The notes below the pieces were generated by a model that saw only the letters and a program-made list of their open reading frames with translations, had not been told where the DNA came from and made no database searches. Both the position numbers and the translations under genes were made by a program. Of a DNA stretch of 64,000 bases, positions 6,847-31,938 are shown in pieces. Positions within the stretch are counted from its first letter, which is position 1, and each line of letters opens with the position of its first letter. This DNA is from an uncultured Burkholderiales bacterium (GTDB lineage Bacteria; Pseudomonadota; Gammaproteobacteria; Burkholderiales; Burkholderiaceae_C): the NCBI GenBank assembly GCA_903838355.1, contig CAILYC010000033.1:1-64000 (forward strand). Reading direction: 5' to 3'.

Positions 6847-7938
6847 TCAGATCCCTTTGTGGCTGAAAATTTCTTCGTACAAATGTGTCCACTTTTGATT
6901 GTCATCGAGCGTGACTTTGGGGTCGGCGAAGGTCAATGGCATTTTGTTCAATGTCGACGTCACTTTGGTGCTCGTCGGAATGAAGTCCCGTTTGCCCAAG
7001 ATTGTTTGCCCAACGGAGAGCATGAAATCTTGGAACAACACCGCCGAGTAGGGGTGTGGTGCATTCCTAGAGACCGCCACACCATTGGGTCTGGCGATGG
7101 TGGGCTCCAACGCAAACCAATCCATAGGCGCACCCGCGTTTTTCATTTGCTCGACCTTGTAATTGTAGAGCGTGAGCGCCAAAGGCACTTCGCCAGAGGC
7201 CACCAAATTGGCCAGCAGGGTGTGGCCTTTTCTCACGGTCACGGCATTTTTAGCGGCAATCTCTCTAAAAAGCGCCACCCCTTTGTCGTATCCCATTTTG
7301 GTGACGGTGCCCGCCAACCAGTCGTTGTCGTCGGCTTCGACCGCGATTTTGCCCTTCCACTTGGGGTCGAGCAAATCCGCATAGGTCTTGGGCAGATCTT
7401 CTTTTTTCAGCGCCTTGGTGTTGTAAGCGCAGGTAAATATATTGAGCCGGGTTGCAATCCATTCGCGGTGGGGCAAGATCGCCTGCGGGATCAAATCGCT
7501 TAAAAAAGGAGATTTGCACACTTGCAGCAAATGCTCACGGTGCATGGCCTCCATTTCGGGCCCATTGGTGTCAGAGACATCCATCTCAAAGTGATTGGAG
7601 CGCGCTTCAAGCACCACACGTTGCAAGAGCTTTTCCGAACCGGCTCTCCAGACTTTGACTTTGATGCCATAGCGTTTTTCAAATTCGCTCGCCAACGCCG
7701 CCATGTCATCTTGTGGCATAGACGAATAGACCGTGACAGACCCTTCTTTTTTGGCCACGTCCAAGAGTTGGGCTGTGCGCTCAGGCCCGCTCAAGGCCGA
7801 AGCCACCCCAGTGGGCAAGACCGCTTGTTGCGGTGTGGGCGTTTGTCCCTGTGCGCCCTGATAAGTCAAACCGGTGCTGCCAACCAGTGCAGTGCTTGTT
7901 TGAATCCATTGACGGCGAGAAAGTTTTGAGGTGAACAT
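6847..7938 (-). CDS. ABC transporter substrate-binding protein (Fe3+-type fold), copy 2
   Basis: Paralogue of the neighbouring binding protein, 363 residues. The N-terminus SRRQWIQTSTALVGS followed by a small-residue stretch suggests Tat export. Core segments match copy 1: VTVYSSMPQDDMAALASEFE, YGIKVKVWRAGSEKL, LPKTYADLLDPKWKGKIAVE, VRKGHTLLANLVASGEVPLA. Two receptors beside a single ATPase and permease imply either two related ligands or a recent duplication with divergence. The 80-base gap between the two copies holds no recognisable signal. Confidence 0.86.
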   Translation of the reverse strand: MFTSKLSRRQWIQTSTALVGSTGLTYQGAQGQTPTPQQAVLPTGVASALSGPERTAQLLDVAKKEGSVTVYSSMPQDDMAALASEFEKRYGIKVKVWRAGSEKLLQRVVLEARSNHFEMDVSDTNGPEMEAMHREHLLQVCKSPFLSDLIPQAILPHREWIATRLNIFTCAYNTKALKKEDLPKTYADLLDPKWKGKIAVEADDNDWLAGTVTKMGYDKGVALFREIAAKNAVTVRKGHTLLANLVASGEVPLALTLYNYKVEQMKNAGAPMDWFALEPTIARPNGVAVSRNAPHPYSAVLFQDFMLSVGQTILGKRDFIPTSTKVTSTLNKMPLTFADPKVTLDDNQKWTHLYEEIFSHKGI

Positions 7939-8089: not shown

Positions 8090-9205
8090 TTAGCTTTTGG
8101 CGGGCAAGGAGGCCAATTCCGTTTCGTAAGCCTCCTGCATTTTGGGGGCAAGTCCATGCGTGGACAAGGCCTGGGTAAAGCGATCGCGCACCAATTGACT
8201 CTCATCGGCGTAATCGATTTGATCCCCACCGATGCGACGGCTGATCCACGCCTTGGGCACACCCTGGGCATTGCGGATAGAGACCACCTCGTGCTTGAAG
8301 GCCAAGTAGCGTGCGGGGCTTGTACCCGTGTTGAAATGCTGGTGAAACCAGACATTGGGTGGAACGATCATGGAGCCCACTTGCCAGTCATATTGACGGG
8401 GCTCTTCGCCTTCAGGCCACATCAAGCTGTAACCCTCGCCACTCAAGATGATCACATGCGCACCCGGTCCATGGCAATGGGCCTTTTTATAGGTGCCCAC
8501 GGGGAACTGGGAGATGTGGCTGTTCATGGAACCGCGCGCCATGTTAAAGCGAATGTGACCACCACCTGCACCGCGCTCCTTGGCGCTGATCAAGGGCAAA
8601 TTGACCGCATCGGCCACAAAGTTGGTCTCGAGCAATAGCCCCTTTTGTTCGCCTTGGCCACTGAAGTAATCGGGCTCACCATTGAAGCGATTGGCAAAAT
8701 CGTGCTGGGTGTTGAACACAAACTCCAAGTCTTCGTACAAATTGATCACCGGTGGGCCATTGGTCACCGCCACAAACCGCGTGCTGTCTTTGCCCGAACC
8801 ATTGAAGTGCTGGTGCCAGCAGTTCAAAGGAATAGCAAACAAGGCGCCCGCTTGCCACTCAAACGTGATGCGATGTCCTTGGTCGTTCCAGACCGTGGTG
8901 GAACCCCGACCCGTGAGCACATAAATCATCTCTTCAAAAAGTTGCCGCTGGGGCTCGAGTTGCTTTCCTGGCGCAATTTCAATCACATAGCAATCATTTG
9001 AGGTTCTTGACGCCTCATGGTTGATATAGACACCCTTGCCACCGCGCCGAGCCCAGGGCTTTAAATCAACCGTGTTCAGACTGGGTACATAGTGGGCACT
9101 GATGATGTCGAGGCCCTCCGCTTTGACCCAGCGGGTGTAGGGGGTTTCTTTTTCAGTGGCGAACTTTTGCGCCAAGTCTTCAGAGACTAATGCATTTTTA
9201 CTCAT
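8090..9205 (-). CDS. bicupin protein (gentisate dioxygenase-like fold)
   Basis: Two cupin domains in 371 residues. In the N-terminal domain the usual HxH metal pair is replaced by QRQ (PQRQLFEEMIYVLTGRG), although motif 2 WHQHFNGSG is kept. The C-terminal domain has HCHGPGAHVIILSG and FHQHFNTG, a plausible 3-His site. One domain is therefore probably structural and the other metal-binding, as in bicupin ring-cleavage dioxygenases. The ATG at 9205 (MSKNALVSEDLAQ) is preferred over an upstream frame that would run into the preceding gene. It is the third of three cupin genes in a row. The reaction is unknown. Confidence 0.8.
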   Translation of the reverse strand: MSKNALVSEDLAQKFATEKETPYTRWVKAEGLDIISAHYVPSLNTVDLKPWARRGGKGVYINHEASRTSNDCYVIEIAPGKQLEPQRQLFEEMIYVLTGRGSTTVWNDQGHRITFEWQAGALFAIPLNCWHQHFNGSGKDSTRFVAVTNGPPVINLYEDLEFVFNTQHDFANRFNGEPDYFSGQGEQKGLLLETNFVADAVNLPLISAKERGAGGGHIRFNMARGSMNSHISQFPVGTYKKAHCHGPGAHVIILSGEGYSLMWPEGEEPRQYDWQVGSMIVPPNVWFHQHFNTGTSPARYLAFKHEVVSIRNAQGVPKAWISRRIGGDQIDYADESQLVRDRFTQALSTHGLAPKMQEAYETELASLPAKS

Positions 9206-9242
9206 TGACGGGACCACGACTCTTTCATTGACTGGACGGGAT

Positions 9243-9845
9243 TCAAGCGCGTTTGCGCAAAAATGGTTTGATGGTTTCAGCATTGAGCGTGACGGAGGGG
9301 TCAAACTCGGGGGCGTCCTCAATTTGTTGCAAATCGTTCAAACCGGACTTTTTAAAAATGCGGTTGATGGAAGAAATCAAACGAACCGGATGATCAGGGT
9401 CGGCATTGAAATGCTGATGGATGGTGTTGGGTGGAATGTAGATCACATCTCCCGCTTCCCAGTCATATCGCTTGATCTCGGCTTGAGGAACCCAGTGATA
9501 GGTGTCGGTGATTTCAACATCACAGTCTTGGTGCAAATCGTAGCCTTTGCCTTCCAAAACATACAAACACTCTTCGGCCAAGTGGCGGTGTTTGCCGGAG
9601 TGAGAGCCCGGGGGGATGATTTGCATGTAAGCATCCACCGTCTCAATGCGCGTGTTCATCTGCTCATTGATCAAATGCTTCAGGAGTCCTTGGCGAGACA
9701 TCTCCCAAGCCATATCTTCGGGATGAACGACCTTGTTGCGTTTGGCGTTTTTTTGTGGCGCGCTCTCTGCATCATTGAGCAGATCTTGATAATAAGCGCC
9801 TTGTGCGGAACCGGTGTTCCAAGCTTTGGTTTCGTCCCATGCCAT
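9243..9845 (-). CDS. single-domain cupin protein
   Basis: A 200-residue cupin with a complete motif 1 (KHRHLAEECLYVLEGKG) giving two His and a Glu, and motif 2 (GDVIYIPPNTIHQHFN) giving the third His. A metal-dependent dioxygenase or isomerase is likely. It begins with a very strong ribosome site (AAGGAGGA, seven bases before ATG) and starts two bases after the stop of the preceding cupin. That points to co-production and perhaps a hetero-oligomer. All three cupins share the unusual HQHFN ending of motif 2. Confidence 0.8.
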   Translation of the reverse strand: MAWDETKAWNTGSAQGAYYQDLLNDAESAPQKNAKRNKVVHPEDMAWEMSRQGLLKHLINEQMNTRIETVDAYMQIIPPGSHSGKHRHLAEECLYVLEGKGYDLHQDCDVEITDTYHWVPQAEIKRYDWEAGDVIYIPPNTIHQHFNADPDHPVRLISSINRIFKKSGLNDLQQIEDAPEFDPSVTLNAETIKPFLRKRA

Positions 9846-9846
9846 T

Positions 9847-10446
9847 TCAATATCCTCCTTCGGGGTGATTCAAATTTGTCTCGTCATTGCGTGCCTTAAA
9901 GCCTTCTCCACCAGGTGCGGGCTCAGATGGACGGGGCTCGACTTGTTGCTGAAAAAGCATGTTCATGAACATGAACATGGGCTTGGTTTTGATGACCAAT
10001 GCACGCGCAGGACGCTCGTTGGAAGCGTTGAAATGCTGGTGCACGCAGTTGTTGTGAACAATGGCCACATCCCCAGCTTTCCAGTCATAACGAATACCGT
10101 CATGCACTTCATAGCCGATACCATCCAAAATGTAGAACGCTGCTTCATTGACATGGCCATGCTTTTGTGAGCGTCCCCCTGGGCCGTACTCCTCCAAATG
10201 CAAGTGAAACAGTTGGGTGATGCCGTCTTTGGGTTCGACATAGTGACGGCTAAAGGCCTGGGGGCCATCGTTGAATTTGATGTCTTTGCCTTTTCTCACG
10301 CGCGGCATGGCGCGCAAACGGGTGAGCTCGTCCTTTAAGTTGTAGGGACCCGCGATCGCGCGAACAAAGGTTCGATCTTTTTTACTGTGGTAATGGGATT
10401 CGTTGGGCACGAATTCCAAAGTTTGCTTATCGTTGACCGTGTTCAT
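9847..10446 (-). CDS. single-domain cupin protein
   Basis: A 199-residue cupin, first of the three cupin genes. Motif 1 reads SQKHGHVNEAAFYILDG. The glutamate normally placed before the strand is an alanine here, leaving a possible 3-His site with motif 2 (GDVAIVHNNCVHQHFN). Three-His cupins include gentisate-type and thiol dioxygenases. The C-terminus (PRPSEPAPGGEG) is flexible. It follows the ABC ATPase gene and is almost fused to the next cupin gene. Specific function not recognised. Confidence 0.78.
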   Translation of the reverse strand: MNTVNDKQTLEFVPNESHYHSKKDRTFVRAIAGPYNLKDELTRLRAMPRVRKGKDIKFNDGPQAFSRHYVEPKDGITQLFHLHLEEYGPGGRSQKHGHVNEAAFYILDGIGYEVHDGIRYDWKAGDVAIVHNNCVHQHFNASNERPARALVIKTKPMFMFMNMLFQQQVEPRPSEPAPGGEGFKARNDETNLNHPEGGY

Positions 10447-10499: not shown

Positions 10500-11603
10500 T
10501 TAACTCTTGAAAACAACGCAATTGCTGGGATCGAAATGAATGTAGATCGGATGACCCACAGGGGTCTTTTGATGCGGATGAACTCGCGCTAGCATGAGTT
10601 TGCCACCGATTTTGACTTGAAAATCCAAGACTTCGCCCAGGAAAATCTTCAAATGCACCACCCCCAAAAAGTGATTGGCGTGGCTGAGTTGGGGAGCTTC
10701 ATCACTCAAGTGCACATTCTCAGGGCGCACGCAAACCTGGACCTTCTCACCCACTTGAAACCCTTCGGGGTTGGGGGTTTCAATCAAACCAATTTCTGAC
10801 TCCAGCACCATGGTGTGCTCACCAGGATTGAGCGCCTTCACGGTTGCGTCAATAAAGTTGATCGCGCCAACAAAGTCCGCCACAAAGGTGCTGTTGGGTG
10901 TTTCATAGATTTGGCGTGGCGTGCCGCGCTGTACGATGCGCCCGCTCGACATCACCGCAATCTCATGCGACAAGGCCAGCGCCTCGGACTGATCGTGAGT
11001 GACATAGATGGTGGTGATATCGAGTTCGCGTTGAATTTTCTTGACCTCAAAGCGCATTTTTTCACGCAATTTGGCGTCCAAGTTGGACAAGGGTTCGTCC
11101 AAAAGCAAGAGTTGGGGCTCCATCACCAAGGCCCGCGCCAAGGCCAAGCGCTGCTGCTGACCGCCCGACAAGCGGGTGGCGTCACGGTCATGAAACTGCG
11201 CCAACTCCACCGACTCGAGCACTCGCATCACACGAGACTTGATCTCGGCGGGGCTGTATTTTTTGAGACCCACTTCCATGGGAAAGCTCGCGTTTTTAAA
11301 CACACTCATGTGCGGCCAAATCGCGTAGGACTGAAACACCATGCCAAAGCCACGTTTATTGGGGGGGGTGAACACCCCCCTGCGCGCGCTGTAAACAGCC
11401 TCACCATTGACCTCAATCAAACCGTGGGTGGGCTTTTCCAAGCCCGCGATGGAGCGCAAGGTGGTGGTTTTGCCACAACCGCTGGGCCCCAAGAGCGTGA
11501 ACAGTTTACCCTTGGGCACTTCAAAGGAGACGTCCTTGGCCGCTTGCACGACCACCCCTTTGTCGCTGACGTATTCGGTGAACAAACCTGAGACATTTAA
11601 CAC
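10500..11603 (-). CDS. ABC transporter ATP-binding protein (PotA/FbpC type)
   Basis: Import ATPase of 367 residues with a Walker A GPSGCGKTT, Q-loop, signature LSGGQQQR, Walker B LLLLDEPLSNLD and switch His (YVTHDQSEA). The last 120 residues form the OB-type regulatory domain of polyamine/iron/phosphonate importers (VRPENVHLS). The GTG start at 11603 has AAGGAA eight bases before it. It energises the permease just upstream. ABC importers of this class pair with binding proteins like the two encoded downstream. Confidence 0.9.
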   Translation of the reverse strand: MLNVSGLFTEYVSDKGVVVQAAKDVSFEVPKGKLFTLLGPSGCGKTTTLRSIAGLEKPTHGLIEVNGEAVYSARRGVFTPPNKRGFGMVFQSYAIWPHMSVFKNASFPMEVGLKKYSPAEIKSRVMRVLESVELAQFHDRDATRLSGGQQQRLALARALVMEPQLLLLDEPLSNLDAKLREKMRFEVKKIQRELDITTIYVTHDQSEALALSHEIAVMSSGRIVQRGTPRQIYETPNSTFVADFVGAINFIDATVKALNPGEHTMVLESEIGLIETPNPEGFQVGEKVQVCVRPENVHLSDEAPQLSHANHFLGVVHLKIFLGEVLDFQVKIGGKLMLARVHPHQKTPVGHPIYIHFDPSNCVVFKS

Positions 11604-11693: not shown

Positions 11694-13427
11694 TTACGCA
11701 TCCTTAACCCCAAAACGTTTGCCCACGGCCTGTGCCACCAAGACGAGTGCCAAAAGCAATAAGATGAACAGCACACTCAAGGCGGAGAGCTCAACATATT
11801 GTCCGTTTTCCCAAAGCTCCCAAATCACGATGGAGATCACCTCGTTGCCAGGACTGTAGAGCAAGATCGAGCTCGAGAGCTCCCGCACCGAGACGATCAT
11901 GACATAGATCCAGCCCGCCACCATGCCAGGCTTCAATAGCGGCAAGATGACCTTGGTAAAGACGGTGAGCCAGCCCGCGCCACTCATCCCAGCGGAGTCT
12001 TCCAAATCTTTGTGAATTTGGATCATGGACGTGGTGTTGTAGCGCAGCCCATAGGGCATGAAGCGGGTCACGTACGCGAGCAAAATGATCCAAAACGTGC
12101 CATAAATGCCGATGTCAAAGGTGAGGTAAAAAATCATGATGGACACACCGAGCACCAAGCCTGGAAAGACCATCGGCAAAGAGGCCAAGTTGTCGAGCAA
12201 CCAGCGCCCAGGAATTTTGGTTTTGACCACCACCCAACACACCACGGCCGAGAGCAGCATCACGATCGTGGCACACGCCATGCCCATCCACACACTGTTG
12301 AACAAGGCGTGAAGAATGGTGTCCGAGTCAAGCACATAGCGGTAGCCGTCAAGCGTCAAGTGCTTCAAGGCCTCGGCCGAAGGCGGGGCGTAAAACTTTT
12401 GCAAGGACGACCACAAAAGCACAAAAAAGGGCAGCACCACAATCAAAAAGAAGTAGAGCAAAAATACCCCCAAGGTGACATAGCGCCAGCCGCCCAAATC
12501 AATGCTGCGCGGCCTAAAACCTTTGCCTGTGACGGTGACGTATTTGCTGGCGGAGGAAGAAATTCGCGCTTGAATATAGATGCCCCCGGAAGTGATCACC
12601 AACAGCAGCACCGAGAACGCCGAGGCCAATCCGAGTTGACTGGGGAACTGGTGGATCGCTTGGTAAATCGCCGAGGTGAAGACCTCAATGCCCGCCGGCA
12701 GGCCCAGCAAGGCGGGCACTTCAAAGGACTCGATGGCGCGCACAAACAAGGTGAGTATGGTGGCCACAATCGCGGGCAGCGCCAACTTCAAGGTGATGCG
12801 CCACAAGGTGCGCAGGATGCTCGAGCCGCTCATCACCGCCGACTCTTCCAAGGATGGGTCCATCGCCTTGAAGGCCGCGGTCATCAACAAAAAGGCCATG
12901 GGTGAGTAGTGCAAACCATCGACCCAAATCATGCCCCCCATGGAATAGATATTAAAGGGGGGCTGCGCCAATCCAAACACCGACTGGAAGGCCATGTTGA
13001 TGATGCCAATCTTGGGGCTGAGGAGCATGATCCACGCGATCGTGAACAAAATACTCGGGATGATGAGGGGCAAAATCGACAGCGCGTAAAACAATCGGCG
13101 CATGGGTGTGTTCGTGCGCTCATTGATCCAAGCCAGTGCCGTGCCTATGGTAAAAGCCAGCAAGGAGGCTCCCACGGCAAACTCAATTGAGTTTGACAAT
13201 GTGGTGATGGTCTCCGAATCGGTATAAGCGGTGACGTAATTGGAGAGGGTAAAAACCGAAGGTTGATCGGCGGTCTCGGGCGTCAAAAAACTTTGCCAAA
13301 CCATGAAGCAAAATGGCACCAAGGCCAAAAAACCCACGACCAAGAGACAACACCCGATCACCATCCATTTGGGATCGAACTTCAACCTGACTTGATGCGC
13401 CGGTTCCACCGCGAGCGGGCTTTGCAC
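11694..13427 (-). CDS. ABC transporter permease, two fused domains (FbpB/ThiP type)
   Basis: Inner-membrane permease of about 577 residues containing two copies of the binding-protein-dependent permease fold, each with six or so helices. EAA-type loops occur at ESAVMSGSSILRTLWRITLK in the first half and EDSAGMSGAGWLTVFTKVIL in the second. Tandem permeases of this kind serve Fe3+, thiamine and phosphonate-type importers. GTG at 13427 is favoured because GGAG lies eight bases before it. An ATG at 13553 would add 42 poorly membrane-like residues and run toward the operator. First gene of the long minus-strand unit. Confidence 0.87.
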   Translation of the reverse strand: MQSPLAVEPAHQVRLKFDPKWMVIGCCLLVVGFLALVPFCFMVWQSFLTPETADQPSVFTLSNYVTAYTDSETITTLSNSIEFAVGASLLAFTIGTALAWINERTNTPMRRLFYALSILPLIIPSILFTIAWIMLLSPKIGIINMAFQSVFGLAQPPFNIYSMGGMIWVDGLHYSPMAFLLMTAAFKAMDPSLEESAVMSGSSILRTLWRITLKLALPAIVATILTLFVRAIESFEVPALLGLPAGIEVFTSAIYQAIHQFPSQLGLASAFSVLLLVITSGGIYIQARISSSASKYVTVTGKGFRPRSIDLGGWRYVTLGVFLLYFFLIVVLPFFVLLWSSLQKFYAPPSAEALKHLTLDGYRYVLDSDTILHALFNSVWMGMACATIVMLLSAVVCWVVVKTKIPGRWLLDNLASLPMVFPGLVLGVSIMIFYLTFDIGIYGTFWIILLAYVTRFMPYGLRYNTTSMIQIHKDLEDSAGMSGAGWLTVFTKVILPLLKPGMVAGWIYVMIVSVRELSSSILLYSPGNEVISIVIWELWENGQYVELSALSVLFILLLLALVLVAQAVGKRFGVKDA

Positions 13428-13717
13428 TGATGAGTCTCCAACTGAGAAAATAGACAAGAAAAGCCAAAACTGGCGCAAGGGATGCGTCGCATTGCCACAC
13501 TGGCCAAAAAACAGCCTCTCCAATGTTCCTATATGCGGAATCATGATCCACATAAAGGCACACCCAATATTAGGCTTGAAACGCTCAGGGGTGTCAAGCC
13601 TGAAACCCTCGGGTTTTCCCTAGGTCATCAACCCTAACCCTGAGAATTGAACCCTGCCACCGTCCATGGGGGACCTCAGAGGATGGCGTTCTGAGGCGTA
13701 TCGGGGCCTGCTTACTT

Positions 13718-13848: not shown

Positions 13849-14622
13849 ATGCCCACTGCGTCTAAAAGTTCCCGCTTGTCCTCCGTTGCCGCTGCTGTGC
13901 GGGTGCTCAAGTGCTTTTCTGAGCTCGAGTCCGAGATTGGCATCAGCAGCTTGGCCAAGCGTTTGAGCATCGCCAAGAGCACCGCACACCGCCTGGCCGT
14001 GACCCTTTTGAGCGAAGGCCTGTTGGAGCAAAATCCCGAGAACGGGCGCTACCGACTCGGCATCAACCTCTTCATCATGGGGGCCTTGGTGAGGCGCCGA
14101 CTCGATGTCTCCAACATGGCGCAGCCTTTTTTGAATGTCCTAAGAGAGCGCACCGGCGAGACCATCCACTTGGCGGTTTTGAATGAGACCAACATCATTT
14201 ACCTCTACAACTTGGAGAGCAGCCAGGCCATCCGCATGAAAAACTACATCGGCACCCTGAAGCCCGCCTTTTGCACCTGTGAAGGCCGGGCGATACTGGC
14301 TTACAGCACACCGGAGCTGATTCACAAGGTGATGCACTCTGATCTCGTGGCGCGCACGCCCAGCACCTGCACCGAAAAAGGCGAGTTGCTCAAAATATTG
14401 GCCCAGGTTCGTCAGCACGGCTACGCCATTGATGACGAGGAGTCGGAATTGGGCATGCGCGGTATCTCCGCGCCCTTGCGAGACATCACGGGCCAAGTCG
14501 TCGCCTCTGTTGGGGTGGGCGGACCGAGCCAGCGCTTGACGCTTAAAAAACTGCGCGCCTTGGCCCCCATGGTCATGCAAACTGCCGAGGCCATCTCCAT
14601 CCAATTGGGCTTTCGACATTGA
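13849..14622 (+). CDS. IclR-family transcriptional regulator
   Basis: A 257-residue regulator with an N-terminal winged helix-turn-helix (AAAVRVLKCFSELES to SLAKRLSIAKSTAHRLAVTL) and a C-terminal effector-binding domain (RERTGETIHLAVLNETNIIY, GRAILAY, EESELGMRGISAPLRD). IclR proteins usually sense an aromatic or organic-acid intermediate and control the adjoining catabolic genes. It is divergent from the transporter/cupin unit and followed by the reductase gene. The palindrome at 13718-13752 is the obvious binding-site candidate. Confidence 0.92.
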   Translation: MPTASKSSRLSSVAAAVRVLKCFSELESEIGISSLAKRLSIAKSTAHRLAVTLLSEGLLEQNPENGRYRLGINLFIMGALVRRRLDVSNMAQPFLNVLRERTGETIHLAVLNETNIIYLYNLESSQAIRMKNYIGTLKPAFCTCEGRAILAYSTPELIHKVMHSDLVARTPSTCTEKGELLKILAQVRQHGYAIDDEESELGMRGISAPLRDITGQVVASVGVGGPSQRLTLKKLRALAPMVMQTAEAISIQLGFRH

Positions 14623-14719: not shown

Positions 14720-15730
14720 ATGTATTCCATTGACATCGACGGCGCCAACACCCCTTTCCCTTGCGCTGAGAACGACACCGTGCTCAGAGCGGGCCTCAGA
14801 GCGGGTCTAGGCTTGCCCTATGAATGCAATGTCGGCTCCTGCGGCAACTGCAAATTTGAACTCCTGGACGGTACGGTGGACAACCTCTGGCCGCAGGCCC
14901 CCGGTTTGTCAGACAAAGACCGACAAAAAAACCGCTGGTTGGGCTGCCAAAGCCGAGCCCGAAGCGACTTGCGCATCAAGCTCAGAACCAGCGAGCACTA
15001 CCGTGCCATTCACTCCCCCACCGTCACCGCCGCGGTGCTGACTCGTCACACCGCTTTGACTCACGATATCAGTGAATTTGTCTTTGACTGCGAGAGGACT
15101 ATGGCTTTCTCGTCGGGGCAATATGCCTTGATCCAGCTCCCCGGAGTCCAAGGCCCTAGGGCTTACTCCATGAGTCAAAAAGGGGGTGCCAGCACCACCA
15201 TGGAGTTTCAAGTCAGGCGCGTACCCGAAGGCGTCGGCAGCGACGTGCTCTTTGGCTTGAAGACCGGAGAGCGCGTGCACATTGATGGCCCCTATGGCAT
15301 GGCCTATTTGCGCGAAGATGCCGAGCGTGACATTCTTTTGGTGGGCGGTGGATCGGGCTTGGCCCCGATGCTGTCCTTGGCGCGTGGCGCCTTGAGTACC
15401 CCGCAATTGGGCAGCCGCCAGGTCCATTTTCTTTATGGCGCGAGACAGCAGCGAGACCTTTGTGGCCAAGACCTTTTGGCTCAGTTGCCCGAGTGGTCCA
15501 AGCGCGGGCACTACACCGCTGTGCTCTCCAACCATCCCGAAGGGGAGGCCTTGCCCGAAGGATGTCAAAGCGGTTTTGTGCACGATGCACTCCTAGCCCG
15601 GCATGGACCACATTTGTCGAATTTTGAGATTTACTTTGCCGGCCCTCCCCTCATGGCCCAGGCCATGATCAAAGTCTTGGTTTCCCACAAAGTACCCATG
15701 ACACAGGTGCACTTTGATCAGTTTTATTGA
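14720..15730 (+). CDS. NAD(P)H:ferredoxin reductase with N-terminal 2Fe-2S domain
   Basis: A 336-residue electron-transfer protein. A plant-type 2Fe-2S domain comes first, with ligands C36, C41, C44 (ECNVGSCGNCKF) and C76. A ferredoxin-NADP reductase-type module follows: FAD motif RAYSMS and NAD motif LLVGGGSGLAPMLSLA. This order (2Fe-2S, FAD, NAD) is that of BenC and phenol/methane monooxygenase reductases. Phthalate dioxygenase reductase has the opposite order. It probably feeds electrons to the Rieske ferredoxin and oxygenase at 21945-23717, though those are 6 kb away. It lies 97 bases after the iclR-like gene with little Shine-Dalgarno signal. Confidence 0.9.
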   Translation: MYSIDIDGANTPFPCAENDTVLRAGLRAGLGLPYECNVGSCGNCKFELLDGTVDNLWPQAPGLSDKDRQKNRWLGCQSRARSDLRIKLRTSEHYRAIHSPTVTAAVLTRHTALTHDISEFVFDCERTMAFSSGQYALIQLPGVQGPRAYSMSQKGGASTTMEFQVRRVPEGVGSDVLFGLKTGERVHIDGPYGMAYLREDAERDILLVGGGSGLAPMLSLARGALSTPQLGSRQVHFLYGARQQRDLCGQDLLAQLPEWSKRGHYTAVLSNHPEGEALPEGCQSGFVHDALLARHGPHLSNFEIYFAGPPLMAQAMIKVLVSHKVPMTQVHFDQFY

Positions 15731-15816: not shown

Positions 15817-15860
15817 TTCATACCGCCCTACATTGCCGCAACCCCTGTGAGCCTTTGCCC

Positions 15861-17648
15861 ATGACCACTTTTGACCGCACCCCAACTCCAGTCACCGACC
15901 CTTCGGGCCTTGACGAGCAAGCTCAGGCCCAACGCCACACCTTGCGCGACCATCAATATGGCGCCGAGTACGAGCACGAGCATGGAGACGATGCCGACCA
16001 TGACCACGATCACGACAACTTCTCGGGTGACGATGCGTCACAAGAGTCCTTGTGGCGACAAGACAATGTGATTCTTCACAGCGTTGGCATTGATGTGGGG
16101 TCGTCTGGCACACAGGTGGTGTTTTCTAAAATACACCTGCGTCGCATTGCCGAGGATCTCTCAAGCCGCTACACCGTGGTAGACCGCCAACCGGTGTACC
16201 AGTCACCGATCTCGCTCACCCCTTACACCAGCGAGACCACCATGGACGCGCAGGCCTTGGGGCAGATCATTGAGCGGGCTTACCAAGCAGCGGGATTGCA
16301 CCCCGATCAAATCGACGCGGGCGCCGTGATTTTGACAGGCGAGGCCTTGCGCCGTGAAAACAGCGAGTCCATCGCCGCGGTGCTCGCTGAGCAAGGCGGT
16401 GAGTTCGTTTGTGCCGCCGCCGGTCACCACATGGAGTCCATGCTGGCGGTCTATGGCTCGGGAGCGGCCAAACGTTCCTATGACGACAAATTGCGCATTT
16501 TGAACATCGACATCGGCGGGGGTACCACCAAACTCGGTTTGGTCGAAGGCGGCAAACTCATTGCCACGGCCGCCGTTCATTTAGGGGGGCGTCTGTTGGT
16601 GGTGGACGAATCCAACACCATCACCCGACTCGACCCAGCCGGCCAATACCTGGCCGCCCAAGCGGGTTTTGACTGGGCTTTGGGCGCACGCATCTCTCGC
16701 CAAGACATGGCAAGCGTGGCCCAATGGATGGCCCTGGCCTTGATGCGCATTTTGAATCAACGCTTTAACAAAGAGGACTTGACCCATTTGTTCCTCACCG
16801 ACCCAGTCGAAGATTGGGGTGCGATCGATGGCGTGATGTTCTCTGGAGGCGTTGCCGAATACGTCTACGAGCGCGAGATGCGCGACTTTGGGGACCTCGG
16901 TAAACTCTTTGGCCAAGCCGTCAGGATGCGCTTGAACGCCGGCGACCTGGCGGTCCCCTTGTTGCCGGCCGGTGAATGCATTCGTGCCACCGTCTTGGGA
17001 GCTTCCGAGTACAGCGTGCAGCTGAGCGGCAACACCACCTTCATCAGCGACCCAGCCACCTTGCTGCCTCGAAAAAACTTGCAGGTTGTTCCCTTGCCGA
17101 CAATCCTCGGGCCGGTCATCAACGAGCACGTGATCACCAAGGACTTGATCCTCTCCTTTGTCCGGCACGACCTCAAAGAGGGCGAGCAAGATGTGGCCGT
17201 CTCCCTCAGATGGCTGGGCGCTCCTTCCTTTGACCGCTTGTCGGCCTTGGCCCGCGGCATCTTGGCCGCCTTGCCCAAAACCTTGGCCCAGCAACGCCCC
17301 CTTTACCTCGTCACCGATGGCGACATTGCCCACAATTTGGGACACATCCTCAAAGAGGACGACCGTGTCAAAAGCGAGCTCTTGGTAATCGATGGGGTCA
17401 CCCTTTGGGGCTTTGACTTCATCGATTTGGGCCGCATCCGCATGCCGTCTTATACCGTGCCTGTGACGGTCAAATCCTTGGTCTTCAATGAAGACCCACA
17501 CGCCCACGGCAAGTCCAGCACCGCCGACTGGCACGACCATGGGGACGGTCAACTGCACCACCACGGCAGCCACCAGCACGGACACCGCCATGACCATCCC
17601 CACACCCATGGCAAATCCAAGGGTGGTGAGAGCGCTTCAAAACCCTAA
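15861..17648 (+). CDS. EutA-like ATPase with His-rich N- and C-terminal tails
   Basis: About 595 residues. The central part (roughly 70-540) belongs to the EutA family, ATPases with an actin/Hsp70/sugar-kinase fold that release damaged cobalamin from ethanolamine ammonia-lyase. Visible motifs are phosphate-1 GIDVGSSGT near 76-84, phosphate-2 NIDIGGGTTKLGLV and adenosine MFSGGVAEYVYE. Unusual additions are an acidic/His segment near residues 38-52 (EHEHGDDADHDHDHD) and a C-terminal tail of about 50 residues with some 17 histidines. No eutBC genes are in the window; instead it is followed by a nickel/cobalt permease, NikR and a CobW GTPase. A metal-binding chaperone or enzyme-reactivating role is an inference. 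ATG 15861 is preferred to TTG 15855. Confidence 0.82.
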   Translation: MTTFDRTPTPVTDPSGLDEQAQAQRHTLRDHQYGAEYEHEHGDDADHDHDHDNFSGDDASQESLWRQDNVILHSVGIDVGSSGTQVVFSKIHLRRIAEDLSSRYTVVDRQPVYQSPISLTPYTSETTMDAQALGQIIERAYQAAGLHPDQIDAGAVILTGEALRRENSESIAAVLAEQGGEFVCAAAGHHMESMLAVYGSGAAKRSYDDKLRILNIDIGGGTTKLGLVEGGKLIATAAVHLGGRLLVVDESNTITRLDPAGQYLAAQAGFDWALGARISRQDMASVAQWMALALMRILNQRFNKEDLTHLFLTDPVEDWGAIDGVMFSGGVAEYVYEREMRDFGDLGKLFGQAVRMRLNAGDLAVPLLPAGECIRATVLGASEYSVQLSGNTTFISDPATLLPRKNLQVVPLPTILGPVINEHVITKDLILSFVRHDLKEGEQDVAVSLRWLGAPSFDRLSALARGILAALPKTLAQQRPLYLVTDGDIAHNLGHILKEDDRVKSELLVIDGVTLWGFDFIDLGRIRMPSYTVPVTVKSLVFNEDPHAHGKSSTADWHDHGDGQLHHHGSHQHGHRHDHPHTHGKSKGGESASKP

Positions 17649-17746
17649 ATTCAGAGAATTCACGCTCAGGGCCTGCACCACGTCTTAGAAACCTTGGGGT
17701 TTGACCTTCTTGCAACACCTCTTCATACTATTTTAGAATTCGTCCT

Positions 17747-18682
17747 ATGCATGAACTGAACACTTCTTCTCTTTTTGCCACCTTGGGGCTTTTGTTGGCG
17801 CTGGGCTTTCGCCATGGCTTGGACCCCGACCACATTGCCGCCGTGGATGGGCTTACACGGTTGCGTTTTTCGACGCAAAACTACTGGACCTCAAGATTGA
17901 CGGGGTTTCAATTTGCACTGGGTCACAGCTTGATGGTGTTTTTGACAACCCTCTTGCTCTTTTGCCAAGGGTTCACACTGCCGGCTTGGCTCGATGACCT
18001 GGGGGTGTGGATCTCCAGTGGATTTTTGTTGATCCTCGGACTCATCAATTTGCGACACTCCTTGGGCAGCAGTCTCAACTGCTGGCTTGGTGTCAAGGTC
18101 AAAGGTTCGGATCACAGTCACCACCACAGCCACGAACACTCCCCCCTTCACGGCCACGCCCGTCTTCCTCTCGCTCGGGCCAACGCCCACCACGGCCCTC
18201 AGGGCTTGATCCAACCCCTGATCATGAAGATCATGGGGCCCCTCGCCCACCCGATGGGTGTGGGTTTTGCTTTTGCCCTCTCGTTTGATACCTTGGCCCA
18301 AGCGGGCCTCATGGCCGCCAAGGGCCATGAAATGGGAGGATACGCCTTGATCGTGGTCTTTGCCATGAGTTTTGGCTTAGGGATGCTGCTGGCCGACTCG
18401 CTCAATGGCCTGGTCGTGCATTGGATGGTGAGACAAAGCGAGCAACTGGCCCAAAACACCACCCGCGTCATGAGTGGGCTCATTGCCGCACTCTCGCTCA
18501 CGATTGTTTTTTTCAGCGTCAGCAAAACGCACTGGGGTCAACTCAACTTGTGGTGGGAACACTGGGGCGTGGCGTGTGCTTTGATGCTGCCCTTGATTTT
18601 TTTGCTTTGGATGGGTGCCCAACGTCTGCGCCAAGGCGCGTTGAAATTCGATGGACTCAAGAGCCAGGCTCCAAGCCTTTGA
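17747..18682 (+). CDS. nickel/cobalt permease, NiCoT (HoxN/NixA) family
   Basis: Eight-helix secondary transporter of 311 residues. The family's metal-recognition signature in TM2 is RHGLDPDHIAAVD (HX4DH kept), followed by FALGHSLMVF and, in the second half, FALSFDTLAQ. A cytoplasmic loop is His-rich (SDHSHHHSHEHSPLHGHA). NiCoT permeases import Ni2+ and/or Co2+ with high affinity; the exact preference cannot be read here. Position between the His-rich EutA-like gene and nikR supports nickel or cobalt supply to a local enzyme. It is convergent with nikR. Confidence 0.9.
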   Translation: MHELNTSSLFATLGLLLALGFRHGLDPDHIAAVDGLTRLRFSTQNYWTSRLTGFQFALGHSLMVFLTTLLLFCQGFTLPAWLDDLGVWISSGFLLILGLINLRHSLGSSLNCWLGVKVKGSDHSHHHSHEHSPLHGHARLPLARANAHHGPQGLIQPLIMKIMGPLAHPMGVGFAFALSFDTLAQAGLMAAKGHEMGGYALIVVFAMSFGLGMLLADSLNGLVVHWMVRQSEQLAQNTTRVMSGLIAALSLTIVFFSVSKTHWGQLNLWWEHWGVACALMLPLIFLLWMGAQRLRQGALKFDGLKSQAPSL

Positions 18683-18756
18683 CCCCGTGGATGGTGTGGA
18701 GGGTGTGGGCGGCTTGAGGGCCAAAAAACGGTGCATGCTCGAGTCTCAGACCCCAC

Positions 18757-19227
18757 TCAGCTCGAAGGCTGCAAGTGCAAATGGGGCATGCCCGAGGCGT
18801 GATCATGGCCCTCAATGTGGCCCAACACCTTGACGGGAACAAACTGCACCGAGCCGTGTCTGACCCCACGCTGCGACATGAGCCGGTGTGCCAAGGCCCT
18901 CACCTCAAGGGTTGGCCCACGCAAAAAACTCACCTCCAAACAGTTGTCATGGTCCATGTGCACTTGCATGCTCGAGACCGTCAAGTGGTGGTGCTCGTGC
19001 TGAATGCGCGAGAGCCTTTCCGTCAATGTTCGGTCATGGTGATCAAACACATAGCCCAAATAGGCCACGCAATGCTCGCTTTGATTGGTCTTCATGACCT
19101 CTTGCGAGTGCCAGCCTCGTATCAAGTCACGCACCGCTTCACTGCGTGACGCATAGCCGTGCTGCTGACCCAATTGGTCGAGCATGGCTACCAACTCCGG
19201 CTCCAAAGAAATGGTGATTCTCTCCAT
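18757..19227 (-). CDS. NikR-like nickel-responsive regulator with altered ligand and His-rich tail
   Basis: A 156-residue protein: an N-terminal ribbon-helix-helix DNA-binding domain (MERITISLEPELVAMLDQL, RSEAVRDLIRG) and a C-terminal ACT-like metal-binding domain. Aligned to E. coli NikR, H76 and H89 and C95 are present as H77, H90 and C96, but H87 is replaced by Q88 (SSMQVHMDHDNCLEV). After the normal end (RGVRHGSVQFVPVK) there is a 20-residue extension with five histidines. The start at 19227 has GAGGAGGAG six bases upstream. It is divergent from the CobW GTPase gene and should regulate nickel uptake, but metal selectivity may differ. Confidence 0.85.
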   Translation of the reverse strand: MERITISLEPELVAMLDQLGQQHGYASRSEAVRDLIRGWHSQEVMKTNQSEHCVAYLGYVFDHHDRTLTERLSRIQHEHHHLTVSSMQVHMDHDNCLEVSFLRGPTLEVRALAHRLMSQRGVRHGSVQFVPVKVLGHIEGHDHASGMPHLHLQPSS

Positions 19228-19396
19228 GACTGACTCCTCCTCAAAACCCTTGGCCAGGGGTGGACTGTAAACGTTAAACTCCAAAGTCTATACAAAGGCT
19301 TGGGGTCCTGTGGGTGCAGTATAGCCAAGCTCACCTCGGGCCCCAACTGCGCCATGTCACCTCTTTTCGTTTTCATTGAACCAAATCCCTCACGCC

Positions 19397-20518
19397 ATGA
19401 CGCCTCAACGCATTCCCATTTACTTGCTCACCGGTTTTTTGGGCAGTGGCAAAACCACCTTGCTCAAGGCCTGGCTTCAAGAAGAGCCCTTGACCCGTGC
19501 CGCGCTCATCATCAATGAGCTAGGTGAAGTGGGACTCGACAACCAGTTGCTCACCGCATCCACGGAGTCCTCGTCCTTGCTGGCCAATGCCTGTGTTTGC
19601 TGCTCGGGGCTCTTGGGTTTGTCACAAGCCTTGGAGGAGCTCTTTTGGGCGCGACTGGAGCGACGCGTGCCGCGTTTCCCCAATTTGGTGATTGAAACGA
19701 CCGGCTTGGCCAACCCTGAGCCGATTTTGCAAACGCTCGAGAGCAACGCCCTGTTGAAAGAGCGCTACACCTGGGGCGGTACCATCACTTGCTTGAGTGC
19801 CCCGACGGCACATGCCGTGCTCAGTGCCCACCCCGAGGCCAGAGCACAATTGAACAAAGCCGATGTGTGCATCATCACCAAAACAGACCAAGTCACTGTG
19901 AGCGCACGAGAAGACTTGCGACTTCAACTCCATCAACATGTGCTCGAGCACAACCGCGATTGTCTTTTCTTGACCTCGGCCCAGGCCAGTTTGGGTGCCT
20001 CTGAAGTACTCGCTGCATTGCAGATTTCAGCCAAGCGCAGGTCTGCGCAGGTCGACCCCCCAAGCCATCGCAACGAATCGATCGGCTCTGTGCCGTCAGG
20101 CGCTTTGGGTGTAGGAGACAATCACCCTGAACATGAACATGAACATGAGCGTGATCACGAACACCGACACCATGCCCAAGCCTTGTGGTGGCCTCTCACC
20201 CAGAGTGACACGCAAGCGTTGAATGAAGCGGGTTTGATGGGTCAGATCCAACAACTCCAAGCCTTACTGGGCACCACGCTTTTGCGCTTAAAGGGTCGAG
20301 TCAAAACCACGGAGGGACCGCGTTTGGTGCAAATGGCGCCCTTTGATCCCGTGCCCACGGTGAGCGTGGACACGCTCGAGACCCCACCCGGCGCAAAAGG
20401 GGGGGATTCGCCAGCCCCTTGGGGCTTGACGGTGATTGTGGGACCTCTTGGCAAGGCGCAAGAAGCGGCGTTGTTCGAGCGAATTGGGATGGGGCCCAAC
20501 AAGGAGCCGGCGCAGTGA
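19397..20518 (+). CDS. CobW/COG0523-family GTPase with His-rich segment
   Basis: G3E-family GTPase of about 373 residues. Walker A GFLGSGKTT at residues 13-21, metal-binding CxCC at C66-V-C68-C69 (ANACVCCSG), ETTG switch region, and a guanine-specificity-like TKTD. Near residue 250 a HEHEHERDHEHRHH stretch precedes the C-terminal CobW domain. This family contains metallochaperones for Zn, Co or Ni-dependent enzymes. ATG 19397 is chosen over TTG 19376 since the fold begins right after it. Its place in the Ni/Co module suggests metal insertion, possibly into the cupin or dehydrogenase enzymes nearby; which target is unknown. Confidence 0.87.
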   Translation: MTPQRIPIYLLTGFLGSGKTTLLKAWLQEEPLTRAALIINELGEVGLDNQLLTASTESSSLLANACVCCSGLLGLSQALEELFWARLERRVPRFPNLVIETTGLANPEPILQTLESNALLKERYTWGGTITCLSAPTAHAVLSAHPEARAQLNKADVCIITKTDQVTVSAREDLRLQLHQHVLEHNRDCLFLTSAQASLGASEVLAALQISAKRRSAQVDPPSHRNESIGSVPSGALGVGDNHPEHEHEHERDHEHRHHAQALWWPLTQSDTQALNEAGLMGQIQQLQALLGTTLLRLKGRVKTTEGPRLVQMAPFDPVPTVSVDTLETPPGAKGGDSPAPWGLTVIVGPLGKAQEAALFERIGMGPNKEPAQ

Positions 20519-20603: not shown

Positions 20604-21731
20604 TCACGCCCAAGGATCAATGGTCATGTGAATGGCGTCGCTCGCCCCTTGGCCCACCAAGGTCTTCAAGGCGTACTCGGTTTGCGCCAAGCCAAAGCGG
20701 TGGGTGCTCATGTCTTGAACACCATGGCGGTTTTGTGCGATCAAGTCCAAGGCGAGCTCAACCGATTCAAAACTGTGACCGCGCATGCCCTTGACCGTCA
20801 AAAACCGCGCGATGATCATGTCGCTGTCAAAATGTGGGACCTTGGAGCTCTTCAAGCCGCCCAGGATCACCCGTCCGCGTTTTCTGGCCAACTGAATGGC
20901 GCTCACAACCGAGTCGGTCCCGCCGGATGCGCAATCGATCACCAAGTCGGCCATCAAGCCCCCGGTCAAATCGGCCACGGTCTCGAGCAGGTCTTGCTCA
21001 CCGATTGCGACGGTGTGGTGTGCACCCAAGCGCTTGGCCATGTCCAATCGCTTCAAATCGGTGGGGTTGTTGAGTCCGGTCACAATGATTTTTTGCGCAC
21101 CCGCTTCAACCGCGGCGATGACACAAGAGAGCCCTTGCTGACCCGGTCCCTGAATCACCACGCATTGCCCAGGACCGATACCGCCTTGCAAATAGGTCCA
21201 CTCAATACCATTGGACATGGGCAAAGCGAGGGCCGCGTAACGCGGCTCCAAGCCACTGGGCACCGCATGAAAAACGGTGTTGATGTCGAGCTCCATGTAT
21301 TGGCTATAGCCCCCCCAGAGTCCCGAGCCCACGTTGAGGCCCGTGGCACCGTAGCGGTGACCGCCCAGGCGCCAATCGGTGGCGTTGCACAAGCGAAAGT
21401 CTCCACTGCGGCAAAAGTGACAATGCCCGCAGGGCAAGTACTCCTCCAAGGCGACCAGGTCCCCCTCTTTGACACCAAATTTTTTCGCAGCCACTCGCCC
21501 CATCGACTCCACACGCCCGACCACCTCGTGCCCCAAAATCACCGGGCCCCGGGTCTTGGGCAAGTTCTGAAAGTATGCCCAGTCGCTGCCGCACACACCC
21601 GTGATGTCGATGCGCATGAGTCCCGCGTCCTCGCGAGGGGCGGGCGTCTCAAAGGACTGGATCTCGATGTGCCCATTGGGCATGGCCACGGCGGCTTGGA
21701 AGGTTTTGGACACGGTGACGTTTGCTTTCAA
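20604..21731 (-). CDS. zinc-binding alcohol dehydrogenase (MDR superfamily)
   Basis: Medium-chain dehydrogenase of 375 residues. Catalytic-zinc region GVCGSDWAYF and GHEVVGRVE; structural-zinc cysteines CGHCHFCRSGDFRLC; Rossmann segment VVIQGPGQQGLSCVIAAVEA; nucleotide-binding part follows. It oxidises an alcohol or polyol with NAD(P). It lies upstream on the minus strand of nothing else in the cluster, and the Rieske oxygenase gene precedes it in the same direction with a 213-base gap. It could dehydrogenate a diol or alcohol intermediate. The start is TTG at 21731, with no good Shine-Dalgarno sequence. Confidence 0.87.
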   Translation of the reverse strand: MKANVTVSKTFQAAVAMPNGHIEIQSFETPAPREDAGLMRIDITGVCGSDWAYFQNLPKTRGPVILGHEVVGRVESMGRVAAKKFGVKEGDLVALEEYLPCGHCHFCRSGDFRLCNATDWRLGGHRYGATGLNVGSGLWGGYSQYMELDINTVFHAVPSGLEPRYAALALPMSNGIEWTYLQGGIGPGQCVVIQGPGQQGLSCVIAAVEAGAQKIIVTGLNNPTDLKRLDMAKRLGAHHTVAIGEQDLLETVADLTGGLMADLVIDCASGGTDSVVSAIQLARKRGRVILGGLKSSKVPHFDSDMIIARFLTVKGMRGHSFESVELALDLIAQNRHGVQDMSTHRFGLAQTEYALKTLVGQGASDAIHMTIDPWA

Positions 21732-21944: not shown

Positions 21945-23231
21945 TCAAACGCTCGCGTGGGGCTTGCCAGGAGAGGCCCGCAACTCTTCTCGCGCAGCGT
22001 CTTTGAAGGCCTGGTCGCGCTTGAGCAAAATCGCCACCGACCTCACCTTTTGGTGCTCCGGGTCAAGCCCAGGCAACGCAATGCTGGGGTCGGCCTCCAG
22101 GGCTTTCAAGGTCTTGAGCATGCGCTGGCGTGCCATGATGATGCCGTTGTCGGTGGAGACCAAATTCTCACGGGTGCGGTCAATGATCGGGCCCATGCTC
22201 TCTTGCAAAGAGGCGTCTTGCATGCCAATGCCTCGAATGCCGCTGTAGTAAGTGCCCGACTTCTGGGCTTCACGGTCCATCATGTAGTCGTTGGATTTTC
22301 TCTGAAGCGGCACATAGTCCTTGTCCACCAAAACATGGATGCCATGCCCTTCGATCATGGCCTGTCTCTCAGAGGCACTCAAGGCGCGGTTGGGATGGTA
22401 GTCAAAACTCCAAGCCCAGCAACTGTGGTCATCGATGGGCACCCAAAAGTGGCCATGCACAGGGTGGTCGGCTCTGGGGGGCACCATCGTGAAGGTGGGC
22501 ATGATCCAAGGGGTGATGCGCCAGTAGTATTGGTCGTCCTCGGCATTTCTGCGGGCTCCAACAAAGAGGCCGCCTTGGGTATCCACCACTTCAAAGACCG
22601 GCTTGAAATCGTTTTGGTTGTACTGGTTGCCCTTGGAGCCTTTGAACAAGGGGTCGCTGTTCAAGCTGCCGCCATGCAGGAAAGAGACGTGGCTCGAATC
22701 GATGCCGCCCTCCATCGCTTGCAACCAGTTGCACTCTTGGAGTCTCTTGGACATGTAGGAGTTTTCCAAAGGCACGGTGGCAAATTCCCACTCAGGCAAA
22801 GGCGGCTGGAGCTCAGGCGGCCCCATGTAGACCCAAATCACCCCGCCACGCTCGACCATTGGGTAGCCCTTGAGCGCCACCTTCTCGCAGTAGCCGCTGT
22901 TGGGGTCCTCGGAGGGGACCTCCACGCACTGGCCATGAATGTCGTATTTCCAGCCGTGGTAGGGGCACCGTATGCCATTTTCTTCATTGCGCCCAAACCA
23001 GAGTGAGACGCCGCGGTGGGCACAAAACTCATCAATCAACCCCAACTCGCCACTGGTGTTGCGAAAGGCCAGCAGCTTCTCACCCATGAGTTGCAAGCGC
23101 ACCGGTGGGCCATCGCAGGCCACCAACTCTTCGGACAAAAGGGCAGGCAGCCAGTAGCGACGAAACATTTTGCCAAGCGGCGTGCCGGCACTGGTTTGGG
23201 TGAGCAAATCGTTTTGTTCTTTTTTCAACAT
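21945..23231 (-). CDS. Rieske non-heme iron oxygenase, phthalate 4,5-dioxygenase-like
   Basis: Oxygenase component of 428 residues. The Rieske 2Fe-2S ligands are C70/H72 (FCAHRGVSLWFGRNEE) and C89/H92 (RCPYHGWKYD). The mononuclear iron site has the family pattern around GIDSSHVSFLHGG, giving H181 and H186. The opening QTSAGTPLGKMFRRYWLPAL is typical of phthalate-type oxygenases acting on aromatic acids. Electron donors in the region are the adjoining Rieske ferredoxin and the reductase at 14720. ATG 23231 is preferred to TTG 23237. Substrate not determinable, but an aromatic acid or ether is the best family-based guess. Confidence 0.9.
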   Translation of the reverse strand: MLKKEQNDLLTQTSAGTPLGKMFRRYWLPALLSEELVACDGPPVRLQLMGEKLLAFRNTSGELGLIDEFCAHRGVSLWFGRNEENGIRCPYHGWKYDIHGQCVEVPSEDPNSGYCEKVALKGYPMVERGGVIWVYMGPPELQPPLPEWEFATVPLENSYMSKRLQECNWLQAMEGGIDSSHVSFLHGGSLNSDPLFKGSKGNQYNQNDFKPVFEVVDTQGGLFVGARRNAEDDQYYWRITPWIMPTFTMVPPRADHPVHGHFWVPIDDHSCWAWSFDYHPNRALSASERQAMIEGHGIHVLVDKDYVPLQRKSNDYMMDREAQKSGTYYSGIRGIGMQDASLQESMGPIIDRTRENLVSTDNGIIMARQRMLKTLKALEADPSIALPGLDPEHQKVRSVAILLKRDQAFKDAAREELRASPGKPHASV

Positions 23232-23396
23232 ATCCAAGGGCTTTCACAAAAAAATGATCCAACACAGCGCCCTTGATCAGGCCTGAATTGGAGGAAAAAA
23301 ACACGAAATTTTATCGTTCCTCATGAAGGAACATGGTTCTTGTATCAGAAACGAGGTTATCATTGGGGAGTTGTTTTTGTCAACTGGAGAATTCAA

Positions 23397-23717
23397 ATGT
23401 CGGCAGCGTGCCCCCACCTTTCTTTGTGCAATAAATCCGATGTGTCCGTCGGGAAAGCCATCAAAATCGAAAAAAATGGACTGACCTTGGCGGTTTTCAA
23501 CATCGCCGGAGAGTACTACGTCACCGATGATTTGTGCACCCACGGACCTGGCTCCTTGTCCGAAGGCGACATCACTGACGACGTGGTGGAGTGTGACTTT
23601 CACAACGGATCCTTCAACATCAAAACCGGTGAACCGGTGGCGGCCCCGTGCATGATTCCTTTAAAGACTTATGCCGCCTCGATCCAAAACGACGAGATCT
23701 GCATCGACCTGCCCTGA
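23397..23717 (+). CDS. Rieske-type 2Fe-2S ferredoxin
   Basis: A 106-residue soluble ferredoxin of the BphF/NirD-like type. Cluster ligands are C47-T-H49 (DLCTHGPGSL) and C66-x2-H69 (ECDFHNGSF). It shuttles electrons between a reductase and a Rieske oxygenase. ATG 23397 has GGAGA seven bases upstream. A frame starting at 23340 would add a stretch without family similarity. It is divergent from the Rieske oxygenase, so the 165-base gap must hold both promoters. Confidence 0.9.
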   Translation: MSAACPHLSLCNKSDVSVGKAIKIEKNGLTLAVFNIAGEYYVTDDLCTHGPGSLSEGDITDDVVECDFHNGSFNIKTGEPVAAPCMIPLKTYAASIQNDEICIDLP

Positions 23718-26875: not shown

Positions 26876-26910
26876 ATCAGTATTCCTCATGGTTCAAAAA
26901 GTCATTTTTA

Positions 26911-30677: not shown

Positions 30678-30698
30678 GGGGTATAGGCTACAAGATTC

Positions 30699-30735
30699 TA
30701 TTTGTCCGAAATATAGCATGTTTTTCAGACAAATA
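30699..30735. promoter_or_regulatory. AbiEi-type operator between divergent toxin-antitoxin units
   Basis: TATTTGTC at 30699-30706 is the exact reverse complement of GACAAATA at 30728-30735. Half-sites read TTTGTCCGAAA and, on the other strand, TTTGTCTGAAA. It covers the likely promoter of the minus-strand AbiE operon and the 5' end of the broken plus-strand one. It is related to the orphan site at 27332-27369. Confidence 0.6.
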
Positions 30736-31775: not shown

Positions 31776-31888
31776 TTCGACAAAAGCGCGCTCAGTTGAG
31801 ACTTGCAAAAACACCGACTGTAGAGGACTGCGCGGGTGTGAACCCTCGCCAGAGGTGCAAAGACACTCAAGAAAAACCGGTCCTCGGG
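31776..31888. repeat. right copy of 113-bp direct repeat
   Basis: Second copy of the repeat at 24834-24946, same orientation, about 95% identical, with both potential stems conserved. It closes the accessory island and lies 50 bases upstream of the hypothetical gene at 31939. Recombination between the two copies would remove the whole 6.9-kb island. Confidence 0.85.
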
Positions 31889-31938
31889 GTGCTTTTGAGC
31901 ACACCCTTTGAAGGGCACTTTCGTGCACAATAGGAGGC

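Follow-up and report, generated by a model that had tools for sequence, protein, structure and literature searches.

Gene content around the EutA-like ATPase

The window analyzed here is a stretch of 64,000 nucleotides from an uncultured Burkholderiales bacterium (GenBank assembly GCA_903838355.1, contig CAILYC010000033.1, positions 1 to 64,000), and our subject is a gene for an EutA-family ATPase located in it. As shown below, this gene belongs to a conserved core formed by the EutA-like ATPase and a two-domain metal cupin (bicupin), and not to the four-gene nickel/cobalt module proposed in a first-pass annotation. That annotation was right in that the EutA-family ATPase, a NiCoT-type permease, NikR and a CobW-type GTPase adjoin one another, which Pfam confirmed, and in placing the EutA-like gene within an oxygenase/cupin catabolic region, since a Rieske oxygenase, a ferredoxin, an importer and three cupins surround it. 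Because NikR is encoded on the opposite strand, the four genes are neighbors and not one operon. In the following list and throughout the text, counts out of 80 refer to the best 80 of 125 relatives' loci (L numbers), a gene being near EutA when it lies within 10 kb of it.

15861..17648 (+): EutA-like ASKHA ATPase, long class, with histidine (His)-rich N- and C-terminal tails (PF06277, ATP-site motifs, fold)
8090..9322 (-): large bicupin, class A, proposed partner of the EutA-like protein (Cupin_2, metal-site His, same genomes as EutA-like, fold)
9243..9845 (-): single-domain cupin with a 3-His/1-Glu motif (Cupin_2)
9847..10446 (-): second single-domain cupin with the same 3-His/1-Glu motif (Cupin_2)
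17747..18682 (+): NicO/NiCoT-type nickel or cobalt permease, 98 bases downstream of EutA (PF03824)
18757..19284 (-): NikR-type metal sensor (NF002815; Pfam NikR_C plus RHH_1)
19376..20518 (+): CobW/COG0523-type GTPase with a His-rich stretch (PF02492)
13849..14622 (+): IclR-type regulator (near EutA in 35/80 loci)
14720..15730 (+): 2Fe-2S ferredoxin/flavin reductase (near EutA in 31/80 loci)
10500..11603 (-): ATP-binding cassette (ABC) importer, ATPase
11694..13553 (-): ABC importer, permease (near EutA in 44/80 loci)
5622..6767 (-): ABC solute-binding protein
6847..7938 (-): ABC solute-binding protein
20604..21731 (-): zinc-type alcohol dehydrogenase
21945..23237 (-): Rieske oxygenase with LigXa-like C-terminal domain (near EutA in 24/80 loci)
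23340..23717 (+): Rieske-type ferredoxin

The gene clusters and hidden Markov model labels used here are our own, and clusters 7 and 5 lump several solute-binding proteins and cupins. The open reading frame of the EutA-like protein begins with a TTG at 15855 (597 residues), an alternative ATG at 15861 agreeing with the start given in the first-pass annotation. The protein (15855-17648, +) matches PF06277 over its full length (E 7e-111, profile positions 3-475 of 475), a likeness to the EutA of ethanolamine ammonia-lyase that extends to the ATP-site motifs, the predicted ASKHA residues G78, D80, G82, D219-T224 and S330-V333 being common to cupin-linked and eutBC-linked EutA in the alignment. 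It differs from that protein in having its own clade, His tails and a cupin partner, in belonging to genomes without EutB, and in scoring under the cut-offs of all four NCBIfam EutA equivalogs (309, 232, 206 and 179 bits for cut-offs of 598, 769, 952 and 799, respectively); an eutBC-linked control, L136, passes two of these four models (977 bits versus a cut-off of 769). No convincing sequence relative was found in the PDB (best E 0.18; EutJ 0.35), and the nearest folds include both sugar kinases and activators. Compared with the activators of 2-hydroxyacyl-CoA dehydratase and benzoyl-CoA reductase (BcrAD/BadFG, HgdC), the EutA-like protein is about 200 residues longer and has a C-terminal domain, and no dehydratase or reductase is seen in its locus.

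The large bicupin has a bicupin fold and keeps the metal-site His 282, 284, 327 and 329 in 42 of 42 aligned rows. This site sits in the C-terminal cupin, and the HxH position of the N-terminal cupin reads QRQ in the window. Salicylate, gentisate and 5-aminosalicylate 1,2-dioxygenases are also bicupins, but their metal His lie in the N-terminal cupin, and the window protein reaches 36 bits where the cut-off is 650. In the single-domain cupin at 9243..9845, the motif is conserved at H86 (62/63), H88 (61/63), E91 (60/63), H143 (62/63) and H145 (63/63); the corresponding residues of the cupin at 9847..10446 are H96, H98, E101, H136 and H138.

Pairing with bicupins and separation from eutBC

The distribution of these genes was followed in 84 genomes of the genus, 200 of the family, 250 of the order and 398 of the phylum, plus plasmid records. 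In the genus, 11 of 84 genomes encode EutA-like proteins, each in two or three copies of which one is long, and the bicupin is present in the same 11. In the order, EutA exceeded 100 bits in six of 250 genomes, weaker matches covering positions 132-268, which we take to be FtsA. The bicupin was found in three genomes of the order (G000, G143 and G180), the very ones in which EutA has no link to eutBC, the EutA of G157, G118 and G075 being EutBC-linked. Since G180 has a short-class EutA only, the paralog classes described below need not co-occur outside the genus. Any EutA at all was detected in 3/200 family and 6/398 phylum genomes, which makes the system uncommon and unevenly distributed. Among plasmids, EutA matched 25 records; the bicupin matched four, all of them among these 25 and each having EutA at two positions and the bicupin at two.

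The neighborhoods agree with this distribution. Near EutA, a bicupin was found in 59 and any cupin in 62 of the 80 loci, versus 21 for NicO, 14 for CobW and 12 for NikR, the latter confined to L005 to L016, the 12 closest loci. The four genes as a conserved unit were thus rejected outside the closest relatives. The co-occurrence that the first-pass annotation had expected held for the EutA-like gene with cupins, present in 31 of the 33 loci with at least 8 kb of flank on both sides (the other two being L035 and L052), and failed for NikR, CobW and NicO, which accompany EutA in a minority of loci. Within the genus, neither of the outcomes that it had named as contrary to its proposal arose, that is, genes unlinked in relatives or an EutA-like gene beside eutBC. 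Four Xanthobacteraceae contigs (L035, L041, L042 and L052) carry a long-class EutA with no cupin within the available flanks.

When 137 sequences were placed in a FastTree phylogeny, the 127 EutAs of the cupin type grouped as a single clade (support 0.988) that did not include the ten eutBC-linked proteins; this tree and the class assignment exclude L001 to L004 and L091 to L125, which are short copies or FtsA-like weak hits. Tree distance separated a long (86 members), a short (36) and a third (5) class of EutA, and among the bicupins a class A (57 members), a class B (32) and a class C (4), with some contigs entering twice (L009 and L149, as well as L013 and L150, are identical in gene coordinates; L090 lies inside L146, and L127 inside L151). 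The bicupin within 600 bp of a short EutA was of class B in 23/23 cases, and that of a third-class EutA of class C in 4/4. For the long class, class A was found within 600 bp in 16 cases and class B in nine, class B occurring where the locus also contains a short-class set or is truncated close to one; when the nearest bicupin at any distance was taken, it was of class A in 44 of 60. EutA and bicupin tree distances were correlated, with r of 0.71 (49 pairs) and 0.65 (21 pairs) and 0/999 permutations each, shared ancestry being uncontrolled; this test used one pair per locus and omitted L090, L126 to L131, L134, L135, L149 and L150. On a Phyllobacterium plasmid (L154:12647-15449), a third-class EutA-bicupin pair has a YjbE-type metal transporter close by.

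Such a near one-to-one pairing, with matched paralog classes, is explained nearly as well if both proteins are subunits of one ATP-dependent enzyme, in which the ASKHA part phosphorylates the substrate and the cupin transforms it. ASKHA-containing enzymes of this kind have been proposed, of the hydantoinase/acetone carboxylase type, and the presence of sugar kinases besides activators among the closest folds points in the same direction. Nevertheless, the sequence family is EutA, whose characterized members are reactivases, and no Pfam match above the cut-off to hydantoinase families was obtained. We therefore consider a two-subunit enzyme unlikely, while regarding it as the main rival.

EutB was not found in the window's own genome, within an assembly of 72 contigs and 2.74 Mb that is 87.6% complete, which bounds any genome-wide absence; it was found in none of the 14 genomes carrying both the EutA-like protein and the bicupin, and in none of the 80 loci near cupin-type EutA. 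These results led us to reject the EutA-like protein as a reactivase of ethanolamine ammonia-lyase here, and they bear out the earlier suggestion of an EutA-like gene without eutBC and grouped with cupins. In contigs with other EutAs (L136 to L144), EutB lies near EutA in 9/9, Pfam confirming six of the nine, and the same holds for a haloarchaeal plasmid (L156). The name EutA is thus misleading for these proteins, and as a label it extends across records from Alphaproteobacteria, Betaproteobacteria and Acidobacteria: RefSeq labels the Phyllobacterium protein "ethanolamine ammonia-lyase reactivating factor EutA" and the neighboring bicupin a hypothetical protein.

A related possibility is that the EutA-like protein assists a B12 enzyme whose gene lies elsewhere, with cobalt import in support. 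The family itself speaks for such a corrinoid role, NiCoT carriers can move cobalt, and a minimal EutA-bicupin pair is adjoined in two alphaproteobacterial contigs (L079:13002-13469 and L060:13127-13594) by an HbpS-like gene (PF03928), a family related to a domain of PduO. However, EutB, the sole B12 enzyme searched, is missing from the 14 genomes, and columns that are fixed in eutBC-linked EutA are altered in the cupin-linked group, namely N226 to K and E514 to G, the N and the E each being present in 10/10 eutBC-linked sequences. In addition, no Rfam match at gathering scores, and hence no cobalamin riboswitch, was found in window positions 1-30000. Taken together, a corrinoid role appears very improbable.

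Histidine-rich segments and metal genes

It had been suggested that all four genes carry extra His-rich segments. The four proteins take ranks 1 to 4 among the 63 non-overlapping open reading frames of the window for most His per 30 residues, with peaks of 12, 10, 8 and 7. When residues were shuffled, the observed peak was matched in 0/2000 shuffles for EutA, 1/2000 for NicO, 0/2000 for CobW and 671/2000 for NikR, which indicates that NikR is His-rich overall and not clustered. At least five His in each EutA tail were counted in 79/80 loci, a number biased by the gathering of these loci with six peptides, two of them taken from the His tails; His tails are also present in three long forms (L089, L148 and L134) that only Pfam had retrieved. 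The four short-class proteins examined (L145, L146, L147 and L085) have zero or one His per tail, one third-class EutA has five at the N-terminus, and the tails of five of five eutBC-linked EutAs have zero to three. In CobW relatives, at least eight His per 30 residues occur in 11/12, and a short His-rich extension, GHDHxxGxxHxHL, ends NikR in 13/13. A conserved His loop in NicO was rejected, with 2 to 6 His per 30 residues in 20 relatives versus 10 in the window. The suggestion thus holds for the window, except that the His of NikR are not clustered; in relatives, the EutA tails and the CobW stretch are kept.

Concerning the metal genes themselves, the family assignments resemble those of a nickel supply set (NiCoT permease, NikR and COG0523 GTPase), but three differences were observed: the restriction in the genus to EutA-cupin loci, the GTPase scores and one NikR ligand. 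NicO matches PF03824 (E 3e-13, 50 bits, cut-off 27.7) and remains under the TIGR00802 subfamily cut-off (53 versus 333 bits); no sequence relative of it was found in the PDB. The CobW-type GTPase scores 123 bits with PF02492 and contains CVCC in its translation, in keeping with the CxCC motif of the family. It scores below the cut-off of TIGR02475, the CobW equivalog of cobalamin biosynthesis (93 versus 332 bits), and below the YjiA and ZigA cut-offs, its closest solved relative being YjiA.

NikR passes NF002815 (170 bits, cut-off 83) and remains under TIGR02793 (145 bits, cut-off 175). In E. coli NikR, His76, His87, His89 and Cys95 serve as nickel ligands (PMC7055735). By alignment, the window protein keeps three of the four, position 87 (E. 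coli numbering) being Gln in 10/13 sequences including the window and His in L011, L014 and L015. Nickel sensing is therefore likely from the family and yet not secure. A search bearing on NikR control of EutA returned 0 matches to the E. coli-type NikR operator. The NikR-CobW gap contains a GTATAGC element, which may be a promoter element, in the window and in 8/12 close loci; it is inside the annotated NikR frame in L007 and was not seen in L011, L014 or L015.

In the genus, NikR occurs in the same 11/84 genomes as EutA, on the same contig and within 1.5 kb of the long EutA, and nowhere else, which shows that NikR comes with the EutA-cupin locus. NicO was found in 10 of these 11 genomes (not G870) and also in G879, which has no EutA. 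As the genes are linked, these co-occurrences are not independent events. Could the metal genes merely travel with the EutA-cupin pair, serving general nickel or cobalt needs such as urease, with the His tails storing or detoxifying metal? NikR and CobW stand beside EutA in just 12 and 14 of the 80 loci, and urease is present in each of the 11 genus members with EutA, as would fit. Urease alpha, however, occurs in 62/84 genomes, whereas NikR is found in 0/73 of those without the EutA-like gene, though 51 of these have urease; moreover, the tails are retained in lineages without adjacent NicO. This explanation is accordingly rather improbable, and the metal genes track the EutA-cupin system. 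A rhizobial EutA-cupin locus without NicO encodes an Nramp-family metal transporter (L031:20791-21558).

Proposed function of the EutA-cupin system

EutA strips damaged cofactor from its enzyme at the expense of ATP (PMC5821096). By analogy, the cupin-linked ATPases may open or refill cupins. Therefore, we hypothesize, with confidence a little short of even, that a catabolic system has its main locus in the window, that its core pair is the EutA-family ATPase and the bicupin, and that the ATPase reactivates or loads the cupin. The ABC importer would take up the substrate, for which aromatic acids are our guess, and the Rieske oxygenase with its ferredoxin and reductase would oxidize it. The cupins would act later in the pathway, at least one of them probably as a dioxygenase. 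The EutA-like ATPase, in physical contact with its cognate cupin, would open it through ATP hydrolysis and replace an inactive metal centre with a functional one. Metal, possibly nickel or cobalt, would be held by the His tails of the long class and supplied in the genus by the built-in NicO importer, NikR-type sensor and CobW-type GTPase.

More tentatively, EutA-family ATPases may have been recruited from B12 enzymes to become dedicated, ATP-driven cupin reactivases or metal loaders, in at least three paralogous pairs and with a built-in nickel/cobalt supply in one lineage; this would be the first system known to repair or metallate a cupin at the expense of ATP. The ATPase family is known, and the kind of partner is new. 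Searches of open-licence PMC papers returned no account of an EutA-cupin system.

To our knowledge, no ATP-driven chaperone has been reported for cupins, a very large enzyme superfamily. If the hypothesis is true, it would show how cells repair or correctly metallate cupins, and it would tie nickel or cobalt uptake to aerobic catabolism. Since minimal two-gene EutA-bicupin versions exist, as in L076 and L079 with the two genes adjacent, the function is directly testable.

Thiamine pyrophosphate-dependent enzymes recur in EutA-cupin loci (L020:11899-13854, L017:14666-16564 and L055:14561-16315), together with hydroxyisobutyrate-dehydrogenase-like and class II aldolase genes, and offer hints about the pathway. 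In the window, a Fic protein with a SoFic-like C-terminal domain (25772-26890, -) lies near the end of the catabolic region. An AbiEii-type toxin with an AbiEi-like/DUF6088 partner is encoded at 29029-30057 (-) and 30054-30719 (-), and a second AbiEii-like fragment lies on the opposite strand at 31289-31933 (+).
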